This document shows, piece after piece, positions 1,204 to 28,810 of a stretch of 31,887 nt of DNA. The translations under genes and the position numbers were made by a program. Source of the stretch: a virus; the IMG/VR virus record IMGVR_UViG_3300013125_000026, positions 1 through 31,887 of that record; one strand, 5' to 3'. The notes below the pieces were generated by a model. That model worked only from the letters and a program-made list of their open reading frames with translations. It searched no databases and had not been told where the DNA came from. The stretch's first letter is position 1. Each line of letters begins with the position of its first letter.

Positions 1204-2850
1204 TCAACATTTTGAGTATGAACAACTGCTGCACTGGACGCAGCCTCCTTGATAAATCAATTTCGATTGACATTCTGGACAAACATCACCAGCAGCAACA
1301 GAGCCATCTTTGATATATTTCTTCAAACAACGAGCTAGACCCTTACAGAAGGTAAACATATCAGCTTCTTTGTCGCTTCTCAAAAGTTGCTCAACGACTC
1401 GTTCAACTGAAGCACCTTGACGAAGACTAAGAGAAATCATTCGACATAGAGACAGGTTGGTCGGATTGTCAAACACGTCAACAACGTCTTGAATGACCAA
1501 TTCACCTTCGCCTACGGGAATCACAAGATCATATGTTGATTTTGCCGTTTTTCTAACATGCTTAACCACAAAGCCGTGATCGGACTTCTTTGGAAGCTGC
1601 ACCTTGCTACTTAAGCCACCAAAAACCTCATATGGTTTTCCATCATACATGCCAACCAAGATTGTCCACTTTTCGCTCTTCACTTGAAGATGATGAATTT
1701 CACACTCCAATCTTTCTGGTCTAGCTGGAGCTTCACACTGAACGAATTTTGCTTCAGTCTTCTCGCCCTTCGTAAGCAACACTCCATCTCTAGACCCATC
1801 AACATAAACAGTAATGCCTTTCAGCCCAACCTTCCAGGCTTCAAGGTAAATGTCGCGTACTGTTTGCCATGTAGTGCCGCGTGGTAGATTAACTGTTGAA
1901 CTAATCTGATGATCAATATGCCTCTGACAAGCCGCTTGCATGGCCAAGCGTTTATGATAATCGATTTGATCGCTAGTCACGAAATACGATGGCAGTTGTG
2001 CAATATCAGTAAGCCCGTTTTTTACCATATATTCTTGTGCATACGGATGATAAACGCTATAGTGCTTCCACGATGTTCCGTTTTCGTCTGTATAGTCTGG
2101 AGCCTCCGAATCACCCGGATTAAGCTTCTTGCGACGATCATATTCCAATCTAAACACTGGTTCAATGCCTGATGTTGTTCTCGCTTCAATGGCTACACTA
2201 CCTGTTGGAGAAATAGTTAACAAAGCGCCATTGCGACGACCAACCTGACTCATCTTTTCATAAACTTTGGGATCTAGCCCAAGCAAAAATTCATTATCTT
2301 TTTCTTTGTTCCACTCCCAAACGGGAAATGCTCCGCGTTCCTCTGCCATTGCAACAGAAGACATATATGCAGCGTTCTTGAACGTACTCATCATTTGATC
2401 AACAAAAGCAACAGCTTCATCGCTGTCGTACCTTAGACCCATTCTCAAAAGTGCATCACCTAGCGCAAAGACTCCCAATCCCGTTCTGCGACCTGCAATT
2501 GCAGATCTCTTTAGCCGACTAAAAACGTGCTCAACATCATCTTCATTACTGGCGTCGATAATCCCTTGAAGCTTTTCAATCTCCAGATCAATCAAATCGT
2601 CACACAATCGCTGCGCTTGTCTTACGACTTCCCCAAACTGCAACATATCAAATTCGTCATTAGTGACAAACGACGAAAGATTGATAGTAATAAGACGACA
2701 ACCATCATCTGCGGATAATACCAATTCGGAACAATTATGCACCAAAAGTCCATTTGCAAAAAAGTTGTGATTATCATCGACAGTCAAATCGTATACGGCT
2801 TCTTCGCCACAGTCTTCAATGGATTCAATCTCGATAAACTCTACCATCAT
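1204..2850 (-). CDS. nrdJ: Class II (B12-dependent) ribonucleotide reductase, C-terminal half with split intein IntC
   Basis: This 548-residue protein starts with a 39-residue C-terminal intein fragment: block F is YDLTVDDNHNFFANG and block G is LLVHN, ending in the penultimate His and terminal Asn. It is followed by the C-extein CSELVLSADDG, with Cys40 as the +1 nucleophile. Cys40 and Glu42 complete the reductase N-x-C-x-E active-site motif, and Cys40 should be the thiyl-radical cysteine. Further reductase signatures are NGALLTISPTGSVAIEA and HIDHQISSTVNLPRGTT. The C-terminal CPEC...CSSCSYSKC ribbon is typical of NrdJ. The ATG overlaps the TGA of the endonuclease gene (ATGA) and has its own GGGGAG site, so it is translated as a separate protein. 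Trans-splicing with the 3535-4872 product should give about 797 residues. Confidence 0.9.
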   Translation of the reverse strand: MMVEFIEIESIEDCGEEAVYDLTVDDNHNFFANGLLVHNCSELVLSADDGCRLITINLSSFVTNDEFDMLQFGEVVRQAQRLCDDLIDLEIEKLQGIIDASNEDDVEHVFSRLKRSAIAGRRTGLGVFALGDALLRMGLRYDSDEAVAFVDQMMSTFKNAAYMSSVAMAEERGAFPVWEWNKEKDNEFLLGLDPKVYEKMSQVGRRNGALLTISPTGSVAIEARTTSGIEPVFRLEYDRRKKLNPGDSEAPDYTDENGTSWKHYSVYHPYAQEYMVKNGLTDIAQLPSYFVTSDQIDYHKRLAMQAACQRHIDHQISSTVNLPRGTTWQTVRDIYLEAWKVGLKGITVYVDGSRDGVLLTKGEKTEAKFVQCEAPARPERLECEIHHLQVKSEKWTILVGMYDGKPYEVFGGLSSKVQLPKKSDHGFVVKHVRKTAKSTYDLVIPVGEGELVIQDVVDVFDNPTNLSLCRMISLSLRQGASVERVVEQLLRSDKEADMFTFCKGLARCLKKYIKDGSVAAGDVCPECQSKLIYQGGCVQCSSCSYSKC

Positions 2851-3668
2851 TCTTTAATCTCCCCAAGATGCTTGCGAACACTTTTCCATTCCCGAAGATT
2901 CTTACAATAAGATGTTCCGATCAACTCATAAAGTTCCTTGTCAAGCAAAACTTCGGTCGTAATTTCTGGATACTGCCGCTTAAAATCATAATATTTTTGC
3001 AGCCTTAGAGCCGCTTCAAAGTTGTACATCGATTTAATTTCTACGATTTTTTCCAAAGTCCAATTTTGATCATAAACGAAAAAATCAGGACGATAATATG
3101 CACCAGAATTCAACAAATATGTTCTTTCCTCGACGCCCCAATTTTTGTTAGCCAGAGTAAGATACTTTGCATATGCAAATTCATAACTACTTCTTAAAAA
3201 TTCATATTTCTTTTTGGATGCATTATAATAAAATCCATTTGCTGCGCGGGAGGAACCGACCAGCCAATCTTGGTGTTTTTCTGGCCAATTCTCGAAGGGA
3301 CACTCTTTTGCTAGCGCATTTTGACTTCTTACGCTTCGCAAAAGTTCTGTAACTACAGACGTACCTTTACGAAAATCTATTTCCAAATACCCAAAAATCT
3401 TTCGCAGTTTACTATACGACAAATGAGAATTTTCCAATACACGTAAAATCAACTTAAATCCAAGCTGATTATCAAAATATAATTCCGACAACAAAACTTT
3501 AAGTTCTGAACGATGTACTTCAAGCGCCGGAATATCAACAAACTGTCGAAGTACTTTTCGGTTCCCCCGATGGTTCGACAAGCTTGTTGCACTCGGAAAC
3601 ACTGTTTCCAGTAATGTATTGATTTTCTGAATTTTGCTCTTTTCCAATTCCAAGTTGTATAGCTTCAT
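2847..3668 (-). CDS. PD-(D/E)XK-type homing endonuclease between split-intein halves
   Basis: This 273-residue protein is encoded between the two nrdJ cistrons. A C-terminal nuclease domain shows E163 (SYEFAYAKYL), the PD pair at 194-195 (YYRPDFFVYD) and the E-x-K at 210-212 (KIVEIKS), the PD-(D/E)XK arrangement. The middle (about 80-115, LSYSKLRKIFGYLEIDFRKG) looks like a helix-turn-helix DNA-binding segment. I chose the ATG at 3668 because GGAG lies 7 nt before it; the open frame runs back to 3776 with no better site. The start overlaps the 3' end of the N-terminal nrdJ cistron by 134 bases in another frame, and the stop overlaps the next ATG. By position it should cut intein-less nrdJ alleles and spread the locus. 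A Vsr-like (EDxHD) affiliation is the alternative. Confidence 0.75.
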   Translation of the reverse strand: MKLYNLELEKSKIQKINTLLETVFPSATSLSNHRGNRKVLRQFVDIPALEVHRSELKVLLSELYFDNQLGFKLILRVLENSHLSYSKLRKIFGYLEIDFRKGTSVVTELLRSVRSQNALAKECPFENWPEKHQDWLVGSSRAANGFYYNASKKKYEFLRSSYEFAYAKYLTLANKNWGVEERTYLLNSGAYYRPDFFVYDQNWTLEKIVEIKSMYNFEAALRLQKYYDFKRQYPEITTEVLLDKELYELIGTSYCKNLREWKSVRKHLGEIKE

Positions 3669-4872
3669 TTTCGTTCTCCAATCCGTGTACATTATAAATA
3701 GGTGACACGGATTCATTCGACCGCATCGACAAAATTTTATCTTCAACTGTAAGTTCGCCAGCCTTAATCCATCCACGATTAGTGTAGACTAGATGATCTG
3801 ATGTTAAACGAAGACTTTTTCCGTCTTTCGTTTTAATCTTCAAAATCTTAGCACGATCTTTCGTTTTAAATGCCGTTGCTCTCTTAGGTTCCACTAGTCC
3901 GGTCTTTTCGTTATAAGATTGAACGTAAAATACAGCTTTATTGTCAGATAACTCTTTGACTGTTTTCTGACCACCATTTGTATCCACAACTGTATCGCCA
4001 GTTACACATGGATTTACACCAACATGATTGAAACCTACATCGGCGTAACACTGCAAGGGAACACTCTTGAGAATGTTGTCCCAAAACAAGATTCCCGGCT
4101 CTCCTTCATCACAAGCTGCCTTGCAGATTTTCTCAAATAGAAGCTTTGCGGACACCTTTCGCTCTGCATATCCATTCCAAGATAGCATATATTCGCGATC
4201 TTCAACCACCGCATTCATAAAATCATTGAAAAGCTTAACGGAAACATTGGCGTTGTCTACTTTGCCCTTTGTACGTTTCATATCGATAAACTTTTCAATA
4301 TCTGGATGCTTGATTCCCATAGACAACATTAAAGCTCCACGTCTGCCAGATTGACCAATCATTCCAGTAATATAGGAGAAAAAATCAGCAAAAGACCAAG
4401 CTCCAGTAGTTGTCTTTGCTGCGTTATTAACGCTCATGCCACATGGACGAAGATTGTCAAGATCGTTTCCAACTCCACAACGATACTTGTAAAGATTGGC
4501 AATGTCGCGACCGGTATTCATAATCCCAGACACAGAATCCCTCGGAGGTGATACGACCACACAATTCGAAAGACTCATTAACCCATGATTGTTGCCAATA
4601 CCATAAAGCGGTCCACCTTGAGGCACAATAAATCGAAAATGACGAATAAGACCATAGATTTCAGCTTCCGACATAGGGTTTGAATACTTTTGCTCAATGC
4701 GAGCAAACTCTTTTGCGATTCTCGCAAACATATCATCTGGACAAAGCTCCAAAAAATTGCCCTCTTTATCTCGAAGAGCATATTTGCTCATCCAAACATC
4801 AGTTGCCAAAGAATCGTTATCAAAGTAAGCAAGCGTATATGCTTTTACCTCATTCTTGTCAAAAATTGTCAT
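3535..4872 (-). CDS. nrdJ: Class II (B12-dependent) ribonucleotide reductase, N-terminal half with split intein IntN
   Basis: Residues 1-288 are the reductase N-extein: SKYALRD, SNCVVVSPPRDS, RCGVGNDLDNLRP, NNAAKTTTGAWSF and IGQSGRRGALML are typical of adenosylcobalamin-dependent NrdJ. The extein ends at VNP288. Cys289 begins an intein N-fragment with block A (CVTGDTVV) and block B (TSDHLVYT, the T-x-x-H motif), followed by WIKAGEL. The frame closes at 3535 after a 157-residue intein portion. About 95 of those residues look like the splicing domain; the last 60 or so are low-complexity and overlap the endonuclease start. The intein interrupts the active site between Asn287-Pro288 and the radical cysteine, which is supplied by the other cistron. 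Neither half could be active alone. An AAGGGACA ribosome site precedes the ATG. Confidence 0.9.
   Translation of the reverse strand: MTIFDKNEVKAYTLAYFDNDSLATDVWMSKYALRDKEGNFLELCPDDMFARIAKEFARIEQKYSNPMSEAEIYGLIRHFRFIVPQGGPLYGIGNNHGLMSLSNCVVVSPPRDSVSGIMNTGRDIANLYKYRCGVGNDLDNLRPCGMSVNNAAKTTTGAWSFADFFSYITGMIGQSGRRGALMLSMGIKHPDIEKFIDMKRTKGKVDNANVSVKLFNDFMNAVVEDREYMLSWNGYAERKVSAKLLFEKICKAACDEGEPGILFWDNILKSVPLQCYADVGFNHVGVNPCVTGDTVVDTNGGQKTVKELSDNKAVFYVQSYNEKTGLVEPKRATAFKTKDRAKILKIKTKDGKSLRLTSDHLVYTNRGWIKAGELTVEDKILSMRSNESVSPIYNVHGLENENEAIQLGIGKEQNSENQYITGNSVSECNKLVEPSGEPKSTSTVC
3693..3701 (-). promoter_or_regulatory. CTATTTATA promoter-like motif inside the intein N-fragment
   Basis: The minus strand reads CTATTTATAATG, 24 nt upstream of the endonuclease ATG at 3668 and ahead of its GGAG site. 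It lies within the coding sequence of the nrdJ N-terminal cistron. It could give the endonuclease its own transcript, as the homing endonuclease genes of T4 have. The overlapping TATAAT could alternatively act as a sigma70 -10 box. Confidence 0.45.
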
Positions 4873-21163: not shown

Positions 21164-23917
21164 TTATGCCATCTCCGGAGTGACGGTCATTCGATTATTC
21201 AATGCTTTTGCGACCACTTTTCCAAAACGATAACCATCCAACTCTAGAACAATCTCGTTATTGGCTGTTTGCTTCTCTTTGTTGTTTGCTGTTCCATCAA
21301 TACCTAATGCGCTTTTCAATACTGTAACAAATGCATCGGTATCTGGAGATTTCATTGTCGCCTGTACTTCGACATACTGCTTGGCAGTATTAACAAGCGC
21401 TTGAGTACGCTTGACTGATTCGTCTGTCACAGAATTAGCAACAGTTAGCATTTCTTGGAAGCTCTTTACATTTTCATTCTTTGAAATCGCTTCTGAGGTT
21501 TCGACAATTGCCTGTTTAATGCTCTTGAAACTGACAGTAAAGTCAACATCTTTAATTTGAGATAGAGCGCTTACCAAATTTGTAATATTCAAGGTCATAT
21601 TGCTGATGCTATTAGTAGCTACTGCGACTGCCAACGCAATTGCTCCAACTACTAGACCTACAGCAAACAATCCTGGCGTGGCAGCAATACCGGCATAGCC
21701 CAAAGCCAAAACAACAGCAATTAGACCATAAAAGAAAGCTAACATACCAATGACTTGTTCCCATCCATTAATCGACTTCATCAACTCGGACATTCCCCAA
21801 GCTGCAAGCCCAATTCCGCCACCAAGAAGCAAAAAACCTGCACCAAGAAGCGAAAAACCTGCTCCAAGGGCGAGTACTTTGGCAGGATTGACAGCCTTGA
21901 AAAAGCCTTTCATACACTTTACCCAACCACATGCGCCACCTTTTGCCTTATCTCCGGGCAATGTTGGTCCCGCTCCACCCGGTATTGGAGAAGCTGACGG
22001 TGCTCCTGTTGGAATTGGCGTTCTAGTCGTCCATTGTTTCAGCTTTGCCGTTGCTTTGGTTGCTGCATCACCAATCATAGAGGCAACTTTGCCAAAACCT
22101 TTCTGCAATCCCTCCAAAACAGGACCAACAAGTTTCAAGTTCATGATGCTAACGCCAAGCAACTTAAAAGCACCAACCAACGTCATGACACCACCAGCAA
22201 TTGTAGCAAAAGTACCGAAAGACTTGCTGCTGGTAATACCAACGATTACATCAAGAACCTTATTAAGTACGGTCAATAGCGGTCCAACTGCTACCGCAAA
22301 CCCTCTAACCATATTTGCTAATTTTTCAACAATCGATGTAGCGGCTTGTGTCACTTCTTTGAATCGTTCTTCCGTCATTGCTGCTTTTTCTGATTTCTTT
22401 GCAAAATCATCATAGGCTGTCAAACTCATTCCGAACAGATTGTTGGCTTCCGCCATATCTGTAATGCCAACAGCAGCAGCAATTGCTTTCTGTTGATACT
22501 TGCCAAGCTGTCCAAACTGAATATTGCCTAAATCAAGTCCTTTTTTGATAATTCGTATACGTTCTTCTTCGCTAGCATTCATCAATTCCATTGAGTTAAA
22601 CAAATCGCCGCCCAACAATGCATTTAGATTGCCAGCGGCTTGAGCAGCACCTTCAAATGTATCAAACTGAGACATAAGCGAAATTAATCGATCTGTTGCA
22701 ATACTAGTTGCTTTTGCAGCAGCAGCAAGATCTTTATAAATCTTGATTGATTGTTTTCCATAAGCAGCAAGAGTCGGCAATGCAGAATTGAAACCATCAA
22801 TCATCTGAAAAGGTACGATACCAATTTCTGATGCTGAAGCGTATAATCCTTTTGCGATACTATCTGCTTCAGTACCAGTCAATTTTAGCGATTGAACAAG
22901 TCCACTGACTAGTTTTGCACTAGATTCTGAAGAAATTCCCAAAGAACTTAATCTTGCAGCAGTCGTCACCAACTGTTCTTGCATTGGCTTGCCCAATGTC
23001 GTAAATTGAGCAAATGAGCCATATAATGCCTGCATTGCTTCGCCAGTTTTTCCAGCATCAACGTTAAATTCTCGATTGTTGGCTTGAACGCTGATGATCA
23101 TTTCATCATATGAACCACCAGCACCAGTAAGCTTGTTAAATGAAGTTGTTGCAGAGTTTACTTCCTTTGCGACCAAAGCTGTCGATTCTGCAACCTTGGA
23201 AAGTATGGATGAGCCAATATTCCCGATACCTCCAAGTGAAAACACGGCTTCCTTTAAAAAGCCGCCAGCAGCCTTAAAAGAGCCTGCAATTCCGCCAGCA
23301 TTTTTGCTTAACAAAATCGCCTTTCCAAGCATTGATTCTTCAAAACGATATGACATTCCAAGTGTCTTGGCCAGTTTATTTTGTAAAGTATTTTGGATTT
23401 CACGTTGCTTTGTTAGTTGTTTGGCTTGCTTATACATTGCTTCCGCGTCTTTTAATTCTACTGCGGCTGCATCCGCGCGCTCTTCATCAGCCTTAGCGAA
23501 CCTTTTTCGCTCTTCATCTTCCTTGTCTGCATATTTTTGTCTTAATGCTGCAAACTCTGTCGCACTTTTACCAGCTTTTCTGTAAACATCTTCTTCGGCG
23601 GCTAATTGCGTAGTTAAATCCGCCATAATTCGATTATGTTTTTCTTGCTCTGCTGTAGCCTCATCTTCATTGGCTGCATACTTAGCTTCAAGTACTTCTC
23701 TCCACTTTTTCTCTACTTCTATTTCAAACTCCATACGAGACTTAAGTTTGTCATTATATTGTCCAGCAACTTCAGCAACTCTCAATTGAATTGCTTTTTG
23801 TTCAGCTAGCTTGGTATTGATGATAGTAATATTCTGATTTACATTTTCCAAACCAGCCAAAAGCTGTTGTATGTATTTTGATGATTCAGGATCAATCCGT
23901 GTGATATCGAATGACAA
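21164..23917 (-). CDS. Tail tape measure protein (917 aa)
   Basis: It is the longest gene of the tail module, sited between the chaperone genes and the baseplate as tape measures are. Residues 20-180 are charged coiled coil (TAEQEKHNRIMADLTTQLAA and following). A glycine/alanine-rich middle follows, with a Pro-rich linker (TPIPTGAPSASPIPGG). Two strongly hydrophobic stretches (VLALGAGFSLLGAGFLLLGG and LAFFYGLIAVVLALGYAGIA) could insert in the host membrane. The start is TTG at 23917 with GAGGA seven bases before it. The protein should set tail length and pass into the cell ahead of the DNA. Confidence 0.88.
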   Translation of the reverse strand: MSFDITRIDPESSKYIQQLLAGLENVNQNITIINTKLAEQKAIQLRVAEVAGQYNDKLKSRMEFEIEVEKKWREVLEAKYAANEDEATAEQEKHNRIMADLTTQLAAEEDVYRKAGKSATEFAALRQKYADKEDEERKRFAKADEERADAAAVELKDAEAMYKQAKQLTKQREIQNTLQNKLAKTLGMSYRFEESMLGKAILLSKNAGGIAGSFKAAGGFLKEAVFSLGGIGNIGSSILSKVAESTALVAKEVNSATTSFNKLTGAGGSYDEMIISVQANNREFNVDAGKTGEAMQALYGSFAQFTTLGKPMQEQLVTTAARLSSLGISSESSAKLVSGLVQSLKLTGTEADSIAKGLYASASEIGIVPFQMIDGFNSALPTLAAYGKQSIKIYKDLAAAAKATSIATDRLISLMSQFDTFEGAAQAAGNLNALLGGDLFNSMELMNASEEERIRIIKKGLDLGNIQFGQLGKYQQKAIAAAVGITDMAEANNLFGMSLTAYDDFAKKSEKAAMTEERFKEVTQAATSIVEKLANMVRGFAVAVGPLLTVLNKVLDVIVGITSSKSFGTFATIAGGVMTLVGAFKLLGVSIMNLKLVGPVLEGLQKGFGKVASMIGDAATKATAKLKQWTTRTPIPTGAPSASPIPGGAGPTLPGDKAKGGACGWVKCMKGFFKAVNPAKVLALGAGFSLLGAGFLLLGGGIGLAAWGMSELMKSINGWEQVIGMLAFFYGLIAVVLALGYAGIAATPGLFAVGLVVGAIALAVAVATNSISNMTLNITNLVSALSQIKDVDFTVSFKSIKQAIVETSEAISKNENVKSFQEMLTVANSVTDESVKRTQALVNTAKQYVEVQATMKSPDTDAFVTVLKSALGIDGTANNKEKQTANNEIVLELDGYRFGKVVAKALNNRMTVTPEMA

Positions 23918-23947: not shown

Positions 23948-24295
23948 TTACTTAAATGGCCACTTAATCTTTGTGGCTCTTTCGAATTCTGCAATTGCCT
24001 TATCTAAACTGGCTCTCTGAAAAGCTGTTTTGGGATCTTTCATTCCAAAACTTGTCCAAGCCTCAAGATACTTCTTTTCGCTTCCAATAGCCTTGGCAAA
24101 TGCTTCAACTTGTGCTGGAGTACCTTTGATTTTAACTGGAAGCTCTGCGTTGTCTTCTGATTCTGACAGAGGTTTATCGCCCATCATCATTTTGAGAATA
24201 CCTTTGATAGCACTTCCGAACATCTTAAGCCAACTTTCGCTTAAGACCCTTGATTTTGCAACTTCATTTAGATTTAATGTAATCTGATTGGACAT
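23948..24295 (-). CDS. Small conserved tail-module protein (115 aa)
   Basis: It lies between the chaperone-like ORF and the tape measure. The N-terminal half has a hydrophobic helix (LSESWLKMFGSAIKGILKMMMG). The second half (GTPAQVEAFAKAIGSEKKYLEAW, ending in a WPF tail, TKIKWPF) is a pattern I have seen in unassigned T4-superfamily tail-region proteins. It has its own CTATTTATA motif and GGAG site, suggesting strong late expression. Function unknown. Confidence 0.75.
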   Translation of the reverse strand: MSNQITLNLNEVAKSRVLSESWLKMFGSAIKGILKMMMGDKPLSESEDNAELPVKIKGTPAQVEAFAKAIGSEKKYLEAWTSFGMKDPKTAFQRASLDKAIAEFERATKIKWPFK

Positions 24296-24337: not shown

Positions 24338-24535
24338 TTAATGTTTCTTAGACTTTTTCTTCTGAGCGTCTTCCGTTGCTTTGTTCTCGGCATCTAATTG
24401 TTGTTTTAGACGTTCAACAAACCAGCCTCTAAGACCAATTGGAAGATTGTATAATTCAAAGATCGACCAATTCCCATGATATTTCATTTGAAAGAATTGC
24501 TCGTAAACTGACTTTTGATATTCGTTAGTTAGGCC
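24338..24535 (-). CDS. Frameshift extension of the gp26-like gene (65 codons, no start of its own)
   Basis: A frame of 65 residues (GLTNEYQKSVYEQFFQ, KYHGNWSIFELYNLPIGLRG, WFVERLKQQLDAENK, lysine-rich tail) follows the gp26-like gene in the frame +1 (or -2) relative to it. Upstream the frame closes at a TGA, and between that stop and the conserved residues there is no ATG, GTG or TTG. The only internal ATG (FFQ-M-KYHG) lacks a ribosome site and would remove conserved-looking sequence. It is therefore probably expressed by ribosomal frameshifting on the T7 run at 24536-24542. In content and place it resembles the small gp51-type or GT-extension proteins of tail assembly. A tiny gene with a CTG start is the alternative. 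Confidence 0.7.
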   Translation of the reverse strand, partial: GLTNEYQKSVYEQFFQMKYHGNWSIFELYNLPIGLRGWFVERLKQQLDAENKATEDAQKKKSKKH

Positions 24536-25442
24536 AAAAAAAGCCCGCAGTCATTGGGACCGCTACCTCCTTCTCGAATCCACAGTTTGAACAAACATAA
24601 TTCTGACGTAGATCCACGTTAGGAATCAATTTGCCATATGTACTGCGAAGGAAAAGAGAATCTGAGGATGGGAAATATTCACTAACCAAGAAAGCATTGA
24701 TTTTGGCTCTATCTGTTTCTCCGTCAAGCGACACAACAAATGCGCGCATGTTCTCAATCAGGTTGGTTTCACCTAGATTGTTCTTCTTGCGAGCTTCTAA
24801 TGTTCTTGTAATTCGTTCTTCGTCGTTTCCGTCAAGAAGCTTGCAACCAAATACATGCTTTGTCTTTGGAACAGTAATATAGAACAGATTATCTTCAAAC
24901 TTTACGCTATCTGTCAGAGGATTGATTCCTGGCTCTGGATTCTCTTCTGTTGGTTCAAATGGCTTTAGAGAGTTAAGAACATCGGTTAGTGTTGTTTTCT
25001 TAAGCTTACCGAGATCGAATGTATGCTCTTTGACTGCCTGCAAACAATACTGACAAGTTACGTCTTGTACTTTATAGTCTGCTCCATAAGCGGCAATACG
25101 AGTGGCAATCAAAAGAGCGTTCTTATCACCAGAAAGCAACGTATTTGGCTCCACTCTGGTAATCAAAAGACTATCTAGAAGCTTATCAAGCACTAGTCCC
25201 TTTTGAATAAGAGAACGAGACATAAGAATGTCTTCTTCCTTGGCTGTCATTTCCTTTAGCTCGACATATTCTCGCATATGAAGAGGATGACCCTCTGGAT
25301 AAAACTTGCCCTCTGATGGCAAGTCTACAGCAATTGTTTGTCGAATATATTCAACATGTTGAGTGACTTCAGCGCCAGATACATTTGCCCCTGCTGTCTG
25401 AACGGGAACACCAGACAAAAGACGATCAGAATTTCGTGACAT
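24525..25442 (-). CDS. gp26-like baseplate/tail assembly protein
   Basis: This 305-residue protein matches the T4 baseplate gp26 family pattern: LPSEGKFYPEGHPLHMREY, MTAKEEDILMSRSLIQKGLVLDKLL, LSGDKNALLIATRIAAYGADY. Two CxxC pairs, Cys130/Cys133 (VTCQYC) and Cys284/Cys287 (VCSNC), probably bind one zinc. Its position between tube and tape measure is that of the tail assembly chaperones in other phages, whose genes commonly frameshift into a short second domain. A seven-T run five codons before its stop leads into just such a frame. The role as chaperone rather than structural baseplate protein is inference. Confidence 0.8.
   Translation of the reverse strand: MSRNSDRLLSGVPVQTAGANVSGAEVTQHVEYIRQTIAVDLPSEGKFYPEGHPLHMREYVELKEMTAKEEDILMSRSLIQKGLVLDKLLDSLLITRVEPNTLLSGDKNALLIATRIAAYGADYKVQDVTCQYCLQAVKEHTFDLGKLKKTTLTDVLNSLKPFEPTEENPEPGINPLTDSVKFEDNLFYITVPKTKHVFGCKLLDGNDEERITRTLEARKKNNLGETNLIENMRAFVVSLDGETDRAKINAFLVSEYFPSSDSLFLRSTYGKLIPNVDLRQNYVCSNCGFEKEVAVPMTAGFFWPN
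24536..24542 (-). other. Candidate slippery sequence for programmed frameshifting (T7)
   Basis: The minus strand reads GGC-TTT-TTT-TGG in the gp26-like frame, a run of seven T. A +1 or a -2 slip by tRNA-Phe on this run enters the 65-codon frame just before its conserved part, and the original stop lies four codons on. The slip directions cannot be told apart from sequence. Confidence 0.55.
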
Positions 25443-25470: not shown

Positions 25471-26037
25471 TTACTTTCCTAGAGGGAAGGTCTTGGCATC
25501 TACAACTGAAATTGAACCGCCATGAATTGTGACGTTTTGATTTACGGTAACATATGCATAATCGTATCGAAGTTCGATTTCAATATTTGTTAAACCATCT
25601 TCTTCATAAGATAGTTCACCAAACTTTGCACTTGAAATCCAAGCGCCATGCAATTCCCAAACTTCAATATCATCGCCATCGCCATCAATCTGCTTGATCT
25701 TTACTTGGCCAAGAGCGCCTGTTGCACCACGCTTTTCAACAGTCTTCAGCGAATCCTTATCTTTAGGTGGCTGATATCCAGAAGCAGAGATAATACCCAT
25801 TACGATACCAGCAGCATCAGGATCGGCAGGATCTACTAGCGTGCAGCTTACTTTGTCCCACTCAACTTTGCCTGGAAAGTAGTATGTGTGATTGAGGTAT
25901 TTGTGTCCTACATCGGAAATCGTAAAACTCGGTTTTGTCACCTTCGACAAGAACCAAGCGGGAATATCGCTTACTTCCAAGACCCATCTAAACGCACGTT
26001 TCGGATCTTTTCCTGTTACATCATCCCAAAAAGCCAT
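25471..26037 (-). CDS. Tail tube protein (gp19-like)
   Basis: This 188-residue protein has the length and motifs of myovirus tube proteins: FRWVLEVSDIPAWFLSKVTKPSF near the start, NHTYYFPGKVEWDKVSCTLVDP in the middle, and the ELHGAWISSAKFGELSYEEDGLTNIEIELRYDYAYV end. It polymerises into the inner tail tube through which DNA passes. It lies directly after the sheath gene, the conserved order. GGAGGAA precedes the ATG. Confidence 0.93.
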   Translation of the reverse strand: MAFWDDVTGKDPKRAFRWVLEVSDIPAWFLSKVTKPSFTISDVGHKYLNHTYYFPGKVEWDKVSCTLVDPADPDAAGIVMGIISASGYQPPKDKDSLKTVEKRGATGALGQVKIKQIDGDGDDIEVWELHGAWISSAKFGELSYEEDGLTNIEIELRYDYAYVTVNQNVTIHGGSISVVDAKTFPLGK

Positions 26038-26089: not shown

Positions 26090-28810
26090 TTAGTCTTGGA
26101 AAGAAGCGCCAGTATTCGAAATAACAAAGTCGATTGCGATATGCTCAATAGTCTTGGTTGGAATCAAGATTATCTTTGCGTATACAATATTGCGATCAAC
26201 CAAATCAGGTGTCGTAGTAGTTTCATCAAGAATCAGCGTGTAACCGCTCAATCCGTAACGGCTTCGAACGCTGTTCAAGAACGGCTCGGCTTGACCAACA
26301 AAGCGATTCCAAGTCACCTTAACGTTTGGATCGAACAGTACCGTTGAAGCCATCTTTGAAATTTCTTTCTTGACATATAGCATCAATCGACGTACATTGA
26401 TTCGATCTGTTGCAGAACGAGTTACTTGCAATGTTTTCTGTCCAAGAATCATGATACCTTCTGCCGGGAAAATACCAATTGGGTTGATGTTTGCCTCGTA
26501 TAGCTTATCGCGATCATCTTTGTTTAGACGATCAGCAATATTCACAACTGGCAGACCACCAGCACCAGCATTTAGACCACCACGATTAAAACCGGCAGGA
26601 GCAAACCAAATTTCTGTCTTCTTTTCGCTTGAAGCAAATGTTCCAAGCGCTAGAACAGAAGGTGGCATCCAAACTAGACTATTTGTGATAGTATCTTTGG
26701 TTTGCAGCCAAGGATAGTAGCAGCAACCATAGCTGGTATTCAACTGTAAAGTATCTTTTACGTAATCTACAGCACTAGCGACTGTTCCCTGACGAAGCTC
26801 GAAATCATCAGTATTTTCTGTATTTGCTCGATAACCACTATCAACATCAGCGATATAAAGAGCATCAGCACGATTCTCGCACACACCAATAGCATGAGCA
26901 ACCAATCCAGAGTTGTATACGCCTGGAATGGCCATTAAGTTGTATTCTACTGTCTCTGGATCTGAAACAGTATTGATTGCGCGTTTGATTGTGTTGTAAG
27001 CGTAACTGTCTGTTTCACTCTTTCCTTCTAAAAGCTCATTGCGGAAAGGTTCTTTCTCGGTGATATCTAATCCATCGAATCCACCGAACATTGGTAGAGT
27101 AAACTTATTGAACTCAGCGCTTAATACGCTCTTGTAAGAGCCACCAACTGCTGTAATCGAAGTTCCAGCAACACGAGAGCTACCACTGTACATTGCATTT
27201 ACGTTATTTCTGCCTGTCCAGCAAATATCATCTAGCGTGAACGTAAACGATGGAACCATATCGGCAACATCGAACGTTCGAACGCGAACCATATCAGCAT
27301 ATGATTCATCGAAACGAACATAGTTTGTAACACGACCGGTTGTAACGCCCCAATATGCACGCTTTGGAGAACTTAGCTCACCAAGAGTCGAATATTCGCG
27401 AAGACTTAGTGTTGGATATTCGAAAGTGCAGTACATATCAGCCGGAGCGCCGACGATATCCACGTTTTCAATGAACTTGCTGCCAGTAATTGCAGAACCG
27501 CTTGTGAAAGAAGTTGCAATTGGTACGTCTGGTCCATAGAAACCGAAAGGTAGAAGTTGTGTATCTGTAGTACCAGCTTCTACGTCGGGATTCATTTCGA
27601 CACGAACAAACTTTGACTTATTCGTATAGTTTCCGTACCAACGATAACGATTGTCAGTGTAATCCCAAACTTGGTACATATCACCAATCTTGCGAGCCAC
27701 ATAATCTTCTGAAGCTGGATCTAGTGTGCATCCAGTAAAACGTTCAACAACTTGTGGTTTGCTATCAGAATCGTTTGCCTTTCGAATCTCTACAGTGAAA
27801 GTGCCGTAAGTATTGAAATCGCTTACAGGAGCCTTTACGTCAGAAATCGAAATCTTGAGATTCTTCTGATCCCACTCACCAGTCTCTAGAGATACTAAGC
27901 GGAACAACTTTGTCATAAGTTCTGAATCGTAAGAACCAGTATTGGTACTTAGATCCTGAGAGAAAATCCAACCAGTACGCGCAGGGTTCGACGAGAAACG
28001 ATAATTTGCACCACTCCAGCTAGCACCATCAGAAAACTTTGTCAACACTGCAAACTGTTTGTCAACAGCAGTGTTATTGGTGTCAAGATCTAGATTTGCA
28101 AACAGTGCCTTCTCAAATGTCTCGCCCAACCAATAAGGCTTAACTGCATCAGTCTGAGTAATTTCTGTATTCGATAGTGTAGGATTAGTGTTGAATACCT
28201 TTCGAATAAAACGTTCTGAATTCTTATCAAAGTTGAACGAGCTTGTGTACTCAAATGAGTTTGGACCAGCAATACCAATCTGGAAACCACAACTACCAGC
28301 ATTTGAAAGTACGAAAGCATCTGTAGCTGGTGCGGAACCACTCAATAGAGCGATACTAGAACCAGAATTCAGATAAAATACTGCGCTTAGTACTGCCTTC
28401 CCATAATCATCACCAGAACCAGTGCTGCCAATAAAGAGTCCATAAGCAGAATCAGCTTCCCAACCAGCAAGACCATCTTCTGTCGCATCAGGATGCTCTT
28501 CGCCAAGCAAACGAACGAACGTTGCAGGCGAAGCACTCTTTAGCCAAGCTTGAGCAGCATATGCAGCATAGGTTGGAGCAGTATAGTTTCCGTCGCGCCA
28601 CACATCACCACCCTTACCGCCGGCAATTGGATTCCCAAAGACTTCAACGAAGTCAGAAAAAGAATTGACAGTTGTTGGTCGAGCAGGACCACGCTCGGAA
28701 CGTCCAATGATTACTGGACCATAGCCTACTGGCTCATTTGGAATCTGCGAGTTGTCAATTTCAGCAACTTGCACGCCAGGACTAACGAATTTGTATTTAG
28801 AAACGCTCAT
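26090..28810 (-). CDS. Tail sheath protein (gp18-like, 906 aa)
   Basis: The N-terminus (YKFVSPGVQVAEIDNSQIP, GYGPVIIGRSERGPARPTTVNSFSDFVEVFG) and the C-terminus (VRRLMLYVKKEISKMASTVLFDP, then VRSRYGLSGYTLILDETTTTP and KTIEHIAIDFVISNTGASF) are the conserved sheath core. The C-terminal segment includes the FAPAGFNRGG and LYEANINPIGIFP regions typical of contractile sheaths. It contracts around the tube at infection. At 906 residues it is well above T4 gp18 (659), so the extra residues probably form surface domains in the middle third. GGAGGA lies before the ATG and a degenerate promoter motif further upstream. Confidence 0.95.
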   Translation of the reverse strand: MSVSKYKFVSPGVQVAEIDNSQIPNEPVGYGPVIIGRSERGPARPTTVNSFSDFVEVFGNPIAGGKGGDVWRDGNYTAPTYAAYAAQAWLKSASPATFVRLLGEEHPDATEDGLAGWEADSAYGLFIGSTGSGDDYGKAVLSAVFYLNSGSSIALLSGSAPATDAFVLSNAGSCGFQIGIAGPNSFEYTSSFNFDKNSERFIRKVFNTNPTLSNTEITQTDAVKPYWLGETFEKALFANLDLDTNNTAVDKQFAVLTKFSDGASWSGANYRFSSNPARTGWIFSQDLSTNTGSYDSELMTKLFRLVSLETGEWDQKNLKISISDVKAPVSDFNTYGTFTVEIRKANDSDSKPQVVERFTGCTLDPASEDYVARKIGDMYQVWDYTDNRYRWYGNYTNKSKFVRVEMNPDVEAGTTDTQLLPFGFYGPDVPIATSFTSGSAITGSKFIENVDIVGAPADMYCTFEYPTLSLREYSTLGELSSPKRAYWGVTTGRVTNYVRFDESYADMVRVRTFDVADMVPSFTFTLDDICWTGRNNVNAMYSGSSRVAGTSITAVGGSYKSVLSAEFNKFTLPMFGGFDGLDITEKEPFRNELLEGKSETDSYAYNTIKRAINTVSDPETVEYNLMAIPGVYNSGLVAHAIGVCENRADALYIADVDSGYRANTENTDDFELRQGTVASAVDYVKDTLQLNTSYGCCYYPWLQTKDTITNSLVWMPPSVLALGTFASSEKKTEIWFAPAGFNRGGLNAGAGGLPVVNIADRLNKDDRDKLYEANINPIGIFPAEGIMILGQKTLQVTRSATDRINVRRLMLYVKKEISKMASTVLFDPNVKVTWNRFVGQAEPFLNSVRSRYGLSGYTLILDETTTTPDLVDRNIVYAKIILIPTKTIEHIAIDFVISNTGASFQD

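Follow-up and report, generated by a model that had tools for sequence, protein, structure and literature searches.

The gp26-like gene in the viral DNA analysed here raises the question of how a second coding frame, which overlaps its 3' end and lacks a start codon of its own, is expressed. The window, that is, the whole stretch of 31,887 nt (IMG/VR record IMGVR_UViG_3300013125_000026, positions 1 to 31,887), contains a single gp26-like gene with an out-of-frame second domain and not the two full-length genes of the T4 arrangement. The most probable answer, to which a probability of about 0.88 is assigned, is that the locus encodes a G/GT-type chaperone pair of a T4-related contractile-tailed phage and that the longer product is made by +1 frameshifting.

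Two overlapping frames at a run of seven Ts

The features of the locus and its neighbours are as follows.

26090..28810, minus strand: tail sheath (phrog_23, E 1e-60)
25471..26037, minus strand: tail tube protein, the upstream neighbour (phrog_4542, E 2.6e-20)
24525..25442, minus strand: gp26-like tail assembly chaperone, short form, 0 frame, 305 aa (PF12322; phrog_150, baseplate hub; AF2 model match to the HK97 tail assembly chaperone, 2ob9)
24543..24545, minus strand: GGC codon preceding the T7 run; the third base at this place is never T at 100 TTT TTT sites, and no U_UUU_UUU -1 heptamer is formed
24536..24542, minus strand: T7 slippery run TTT TTT T(GG), its form and position conserved in the +1 relatives
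24539-24537, minus strand: putative slip point, P-site TTT moving +1 with TGG in the A site
24525..24527, minus strand: 0-frame stop TAA of the short product
24338..24535, minus strand: +1-frame domain, the gp51-type 'T' domain, 65 codons plus a TAA stop, no usable start codon
24338..25442, minus strand: predicted gp26-gp51 fusion, the putative frameshift product, 367 aa, presumed junction AGFF/GLTNEYQ
21164..23917, minus strand: probable tape measure protein, 917 aa, downstream, so named from position and length, with a weak phrog_2013 tail match (E 0.0038)

The gp26-like ORF ends in ACT GCG GGC TTT TTT TGG CCT AAC TAA. The +1 frame, which is also the -2 frame, begins GGC CTA ACT AAC GAA TAT CAA and runs open through 65 codons (24535 to 24341) to its stop at 24340-24338. 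The original prediction placed this frame immediately after the gp26-like stop; the frame and its +1/-2 relation are real, but it overlaps the stop instead of following it, and its conserved part begins at the T run, with a GL dipeptide four codons ahead of the 0-frame stop. The seven Ts at 24542-24536, read GGC TTT TTT TGG, lie where the two frames can be exchanged, as had been noticed, and the lack of a usable start is also confirmed: from the upstream stop to about residue 18 of the domain there is no ATG, GTG or TTG, and none stands ahead of 'QMKYHG', well inside the domain.

The genes run in the order sheath, tube, gp26, second domain, small ORF and 917-aa probable tape measure, which is the annotated gene order in Flavobacterium phage immuto. 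The small ORF in this series (23948-24295, minus strand, 115 aa), which separates the chaperone from the probable tape measure gene, shows no Pfam or PHROGs family at a useful score. Elsewhere in the window, the gene of the ribonucleotide reductase large subunit (1204-4872, minus strand) is broken by a split intein. Its N part (3535-4872) ends in the intein N-half and its C part (1204-2850) starts with the intein C-half, which ends ..LLVHN/C; PF14890 is found on both intein halves. A 309-aa ORF with a nuclease-like RPDFFV..EIK stretch lies between the reductase halves (2847-3776).

In the proposed +1 mechanism, the majority of ribosomes would read GGC TTT TTT TGG CCT AAC TAA and release the 305-aa short form. 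In a minority, tRNA-Phe would occupy the second TTT in the P site while the single Trp codon TGG waits in the A site; these ribosomes would re-pair one base forward, from TTT to TTT, and continue with GGC CTA ACT AAC GAA. The resulting long form would comprise the short part and a 65-residue three-helix domain, 367 aa in total, and the ratio of short to long form would be set by the slip rate. By analogy with lambda gpG/gpGT, coating of the tape measure protein may fall to the short form, and recruitment of tail tube subunits to the long form. The tryptic junction peptides predicted from the window sequence are EVAVPMTAGFFGLTNEYQK for a +1 slip and EVAVPMTAGFFFGLTNEYQK for a -2 slip.

Conservation of the frame relation and of the proposed slip site

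Approximately 230 loci were collected from four scans of viral contigs, one scan of genome contigs and annotated phages, and the frame was called with a profile of the second domain at the 211 loci with a complete 3' end. Relatives had been proposed as a check of the frame relation, and the second domain lies in the +1 frame at 204 of the 211; six are in the -1 frame, and one contig ends at the site. Counted by cluster, the +1 relation is found in 164 of 171 at 90% identity and in 42 of 44 at 50%. The profile likewise places ten further loci, from genome contigs and SP-15, in the +1 frame. RM378, whose second domain has diverged too far for the profile to recognise, is +1 by inspection: its +1 frame opens at TTT TTT TGG with FFG, a site still identical at 26% identity. 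Isolates with the +1 relation include Mel-JY01, Flavobacterium immuto, RM378 and SP-15.

Miscalled bases in the T run would break one ordinary ORF in just this way, and such an error had been named in advance as an outcome that would overturn the prediction. Homopolymers are error-prone in sequencing, but the split frames recur at more than 160 distinct loci, among them loci in finished isolate genomes and sites that lack a long run, and the relatives thus refute this explanation, whose probability is negligible. Judged from the sequences, the conserved frame relation is explained neither by chance nor by sequencing error.

Two of the collected loci are recorded here for their own sake. One (L224) lies on contig JABHXC010000041.1, binned as a Woesearchaeota archaeon, and has the same +1 chaperone locus with the site TTTTTTTGG; it is either a binning error or an archaeal virus. 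The other (L227, about 3660-3711, from a Winogradskyella MAG) has the eight-T variant AAC TTT TTT TTC CCT, with the second domain still in the +1 frame.

The 170 distinct +1 loci carry the site types TTTTTTTGG (148), TTCTTTTGG (12), TTTCTTTGG (4), TTTTTTTAC (3) and CTTTTTTGG (3). In the long ORFs of the window, TTTTTTTGG occurs in frame once among 8,291 codons, at 24542-24536 only. The variants seen are TTC TTT TGG, TTT CTT TGG, CTT TTT TGG, TTT TTT TAC, TTT TTT CAC, TTC TTT CGT and TTT CTA, among which TTT TTT CAC (SP-15), TTC TTT CGT (GXN1) and TTT CTA (LR756508) come from remote relatives. The only feature common to all variants is a P-site YTT followed by a pyrimidine (YTT_Y), and this common minimum is the pattern expected for +1 re-pairing.

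The variants also bear on the direction of the slip. The +1 and -2 frames are identical, the P-site tRNA-Phe at TTT TTT TGG can re-pair two bases back as well, and the chaperone of phage Mu uses a -2 shift (PMC5009743); a -2 ribosomal frameshift at the T7 run would yield GFFFG in place of GFFG. At TTC TTT TGG, TTC TTT CGT and AAC TTT CTA, however, a -2 slip would set the Phe anticodon on UCU or ACU with a mismatch in the middle position, which indicates that the two-base-back re-pairing of the Mu type is not available at the sites of all members. These sites still keep the +1 relation and the second domain, and a single mechanism for all of them favours +1, which renders a -2 slip unlikely. 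The choice between +1 and -2 that the original prediction had left is thereby decided for +1, since TTC TTT TGG, TTC TTT CGT and TTT CTA permit only +1 re-pairing in the P site.

The same variants weigh against slippage of the RNA polymerase on the T7 run, in which mRNAs with six Us would give the fusion by ordinary translation. Loss of one U would lead to the same protein, and the run length is seven in most relatives. Runs of seven bases are short for polymerase slippage, and the frame relation is unchanged at TTCTTTTGG, with a run of four Ts, and at TTTCTTTGG, with a run of three, so that a long homopolymer is not conserved; transcriptional slippage is accordingly given very little credence.

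The synonymous codons at the site are constrained. Among 164 clusters, the second site codon is TTT in 161, CTT in three and TTC in none, compared with a TTT:TTC ratio of 1190:392 for Phe elsewhere in the same genes (TTC 25%). UUU and CUU are among the P-site codons most prone to +1 slipping, with UUU ranking after CUU (PMC10885494). The base ahead of the T run is T in none of the 100 cluster representatives with TTT TTT, against 45.8 expected from codon usage; the codon at this place is GAC in 32 of 32 cases of Asp (GAT is 73% elsewhere) and AAC in 16 of 16 cases of Asn (AAT is dominant elsewhere). A T ahead of the run would make the tandem -1 site U_UUU_UUU, and its absence therefore blocks a tandem -1 slip. 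The -1-using relatives have GAT or another T-ending codon at exactly this place. Avoidance of an eight-T run for mutational stability could contribute to the missing T.

Additionally, the +1 frame evolves as a coding frame. Past the overlap with the 0 frame, 77 disjoint pairs show 421, 200 and 1151 substitutions at +1-frame codon positions 1, 2 and 3, respectively. Within the overlap, 106 of 112 representatives retain the +1-frame Gly that directly follows the slip and 107 the Leu that comes next, compared with 99 for the 0-frame Pro, and changes of this Pro to Ser, Phe or Ala preserve the +1-frame residues. The third base of the Pro codon (CCT) is T in 96%, whereas a conserved Pro located six codons before the P-site codon shows no such restriction at its third base. 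The conservation of Gly-Leu and the fixed third base of CCT indicate that the +1 frame is read from the T run on, ahead of the 0-frame stop.

This constraint has to be set against the idea that the second domain is a separate small gene, translated by re-initiation past the gp26 stop or from an unusual start codon. The domain is annotated as its own CDS in Mel-JY01 and in cyanophages, three relatives (L038, L210 and L214) have an ATG at the stop, and T4 has two distinct genes. Re-initiation past the stop does not explain a +1 constraint that begins ahead of it, however, and the fixed +1 relation and the synonymous choices at the slippery site also argue against separate translation. The window offers no usable start, and an ATG with an SD-like sequence for the second domain is present at 4 of 170 loci. 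A separate gene is consequently considered improbable. The original proposal, in which a programmed frameshift fuses a short domain to a gp26-type protein, is strongly supported by the conserved frame relation and slippery codons, the coding constraint in the +1 frame, the avoidance of T ahead of the run and the missing start.

A search for stimulators of the slip found no SD at the prfB spacing of three bases upstream. SD-like 4-mers peak at about -24, where GGAG is present in 46 of 112 representatives; this GGAG was rejected as a stimulator because it is tied to Leu/Met-Glu-Val codons and is absent in the other representatives. Compared with shuffled sequences, RNA folding downstream gives a mean z of -0.19 (50 nt) and -0.34 (90 nt), with no convincing structure, and that of the upstream stretch gives -0.91. 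The long ORFs of the window contain seven further in-frame copies of YTT_TGG, which indicates that this sequence is not sufficient alone; the T7 form, the Trp codon and the following GGCCT are candidates for raising the efficiency.

Departures from the +1 relation

Three loci (L092, at 3430-3600, L100 and L109) group together as one clade with a support of 0.998, inside a clade of 42 members (0.895) in which every other listed member is +1. All three have the second domain in the -1 frame, and each carries an in-frame canonical heptamer, A AAT TTC, that lies a single codon upstream of the second Phe codon. These loci appear to have switched the same gene from +1 to -1 shifting. L100 keeps the +1-type TTT TGG beside A AAT TTC, and both L100 and L214 retain YTT_T though their second domain is not in the +1 frame. 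L210 and L214 are a sister pair (support 1.0) that is in turn sister to the +1 phage immuto (0.98); in these two and in L038, the second domain forms a separate ORF that begins with an ATG at the gp26 stop. The exceptions suggest that either a change of direction or a split of the gene can lead to the same output.

In three Bacteroidota loci (L243, L244 and L245), a DUF6760 domain adjoins the gp26-like domain. The two parts are fused in frame as one ORF in L244 and L245 and overlap in different frames in L243. These loci are possibly extracellular contractile injection systems.

A separate -1 branch is formed by P-HM1 (L250, 8677-9557), S-PM2, S-CRM01, LG08, Aeh1 and the KVP40-like PVA8 (L250, L251, L252, L253, L254 and L255). 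The heptamer T TTT TTC is in frame near the end of gp26 in these phages, and from it onward the -1 frame stays open through the gp51 domain. Annotations of this branch treat gp51 as a gene of its own that starts at an internal ATG, and that of Aeh1 lists no gp51 at this place; 'gp51' is probably mis-annotated as a separate gene, or missed, in many phage genomes. A passage in PMC12846349 credits poly-T -1 sites in T4-like chaperone genes to Vladimirov et al. 2022, so the -1 branch may already be known, and no novelty is claimed for it.

Considered together, these cases make it somewhat more plausible than the opposite that one homologous pair of Phe codons, at the end of a single family of chaperone genes, acts as a switchable frameshift signal, in which GAT TTT TTC would direct -1 and [not T] TTT TTT TGG would direct +1. 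The direction would be set by one synonymous base ahead of the run and by the next codon, without an SD or RNA structure, and would have changed in evolution, or the shift would have been replaced by splitting or fusion, with both products kept. The mix of +1, -1, split and fused forms renders the determinants of slip direction and the need for both products directly testable.

Protein relationships and known systems

The two parts were folded separately by AF2. The first domain passes the PF12322 threshold (27.9 bits against a gathering cut-off of 24.5), and its model has a pLDDT of 91. In VIA-align, this model ranks 2ob9_B (HK97 gp13, a tail assembly chaperone) first, with a modest Z of 5.1 and an rmsd of 2.9 over 74 residues (model residues 34-120); the Foldseek E-values are all above 0.4. 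This modest match agrees with the position of the gene between tube and tape measure and is consistent with a chaperone role.

The second-domain model comprises three helices with a pLDDT of 90. The second-domain profile matches the 53-aa gp51 of the Prochlorococcus phage P-HM1 with an E of 8.7e-7 in a two-protein search. Foldseek gives weak matches (best E 0.023), which include P-HM1 gp51 and two proteins named tail assembly chaperone; VIA-align gives only small helical folds, mostly histones, at a Z of about 3, and a PDB sequence search returned nothing useful. From sequence comparison, the second domain is of the cyanophage gp51 family. Its relation to T4 is more distant: single-profile HMM searches of T4 gp26 and gp51 give no significant match, and profile-profile comparison is needed, in which the alignment of the fused +1 family to the T4 gp51 family extends through both domains (probability 83%, E 9e-6) and the second domain alone matches T4 gp51 only weakly (P 0.014). 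From the alignment over both domains, T4 gp51 looks like an in-frame, stand-alone long form. Some T4-like phages have one short and one fused chaperone gene (PMC10885494), which agrees with this reading of T4 gp51. The suggested link between T4-type gp26/gp51 genes and the G/GT system thus holds for the sequences of the second domain and of the fused family; on the fold side, the HK97 chaperone is the best solved match of the gp26-like model, with the modest score given above.

Lambda G/GT is among the closest known systems (Xu, Hendrix & Duda 2004; PMC5009743). As in lambda, the gene lies between the tail tube and tape measure genes, two overlapping frames meet at a conserved slippery site, and the predicted products are a short one and a frameshift-extended one with a short second domain. 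Chaperones of the lambda type usually use -1 (PMC5009743), whereas here the shift would be +1 at UUU_UGG, in a PF12322 protein, and conserved across a very large T4-related group. The Mu chaperone uses -2, and that of haloarchaeal HSTV-2 very likely +1 (PMC5009743).

The cyanophage, Aeh1 and KVP40-like gp26-gp51 pairs have homologous domains and slippery Phe-Phe codons at the same place ahead of the gp26 stop but differ in the -1 heptamer T TTT TTC and in having gp51 in the -1 frame. The bacterial prfB gene (release factor 2, CUU_UGA) also re-pairs a P-site YUU by +1 onto UUU, and four relatives of the present locus have CTT_T. The P-site YTT followed by T or C is thus shared with prfB, but the A site here holds the Trp codon TGG, not a stop, the SD three bases upstream is absent, and autoregulation is not expected. 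In Listeria PSA/A118/A500 and in SPP1, a +1 shift likewise adds a C-terminal extension to the product of a phage tail or capsid gene, but the sites are CCC followed by a stop or UCC, and the extended proteins are tail tube or capsid proteins, not chaperones (PMC5009743, PMC6316719).

The T4 hub assembly chaperones gp26/gp51 (PF12322, phrog_150) share the passed PF12322 threshold and the likeness of the fusion to gp51 across both domains. T4 differs in having two genes on opposite strands, with gp51 as one continuous ORF. For T4-like phages, Vladimirov et al. 2022 (Virology 566:9-15) reportedly propose that something other than frameshifting is at work. Within the searchable literature, which does not include that paper, no account of a conserved +1 frameshift in the gp26/gp51 family turned up. 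G/GT frameshifting has been described as conserved in long-tailed phages 'except T4' (PMC5009743), and shifts of -1, -2 and rarely +1 are already known in phage tail chaperones (PMC5009743). Against this background, the T4-type gp26/gp51 chaperone family would be one that uses frameshifting widely and in the rarer +1 direction, and its loci would supply a single +1 site in well over 100 naturally occurring versions; few families of this kind are known.
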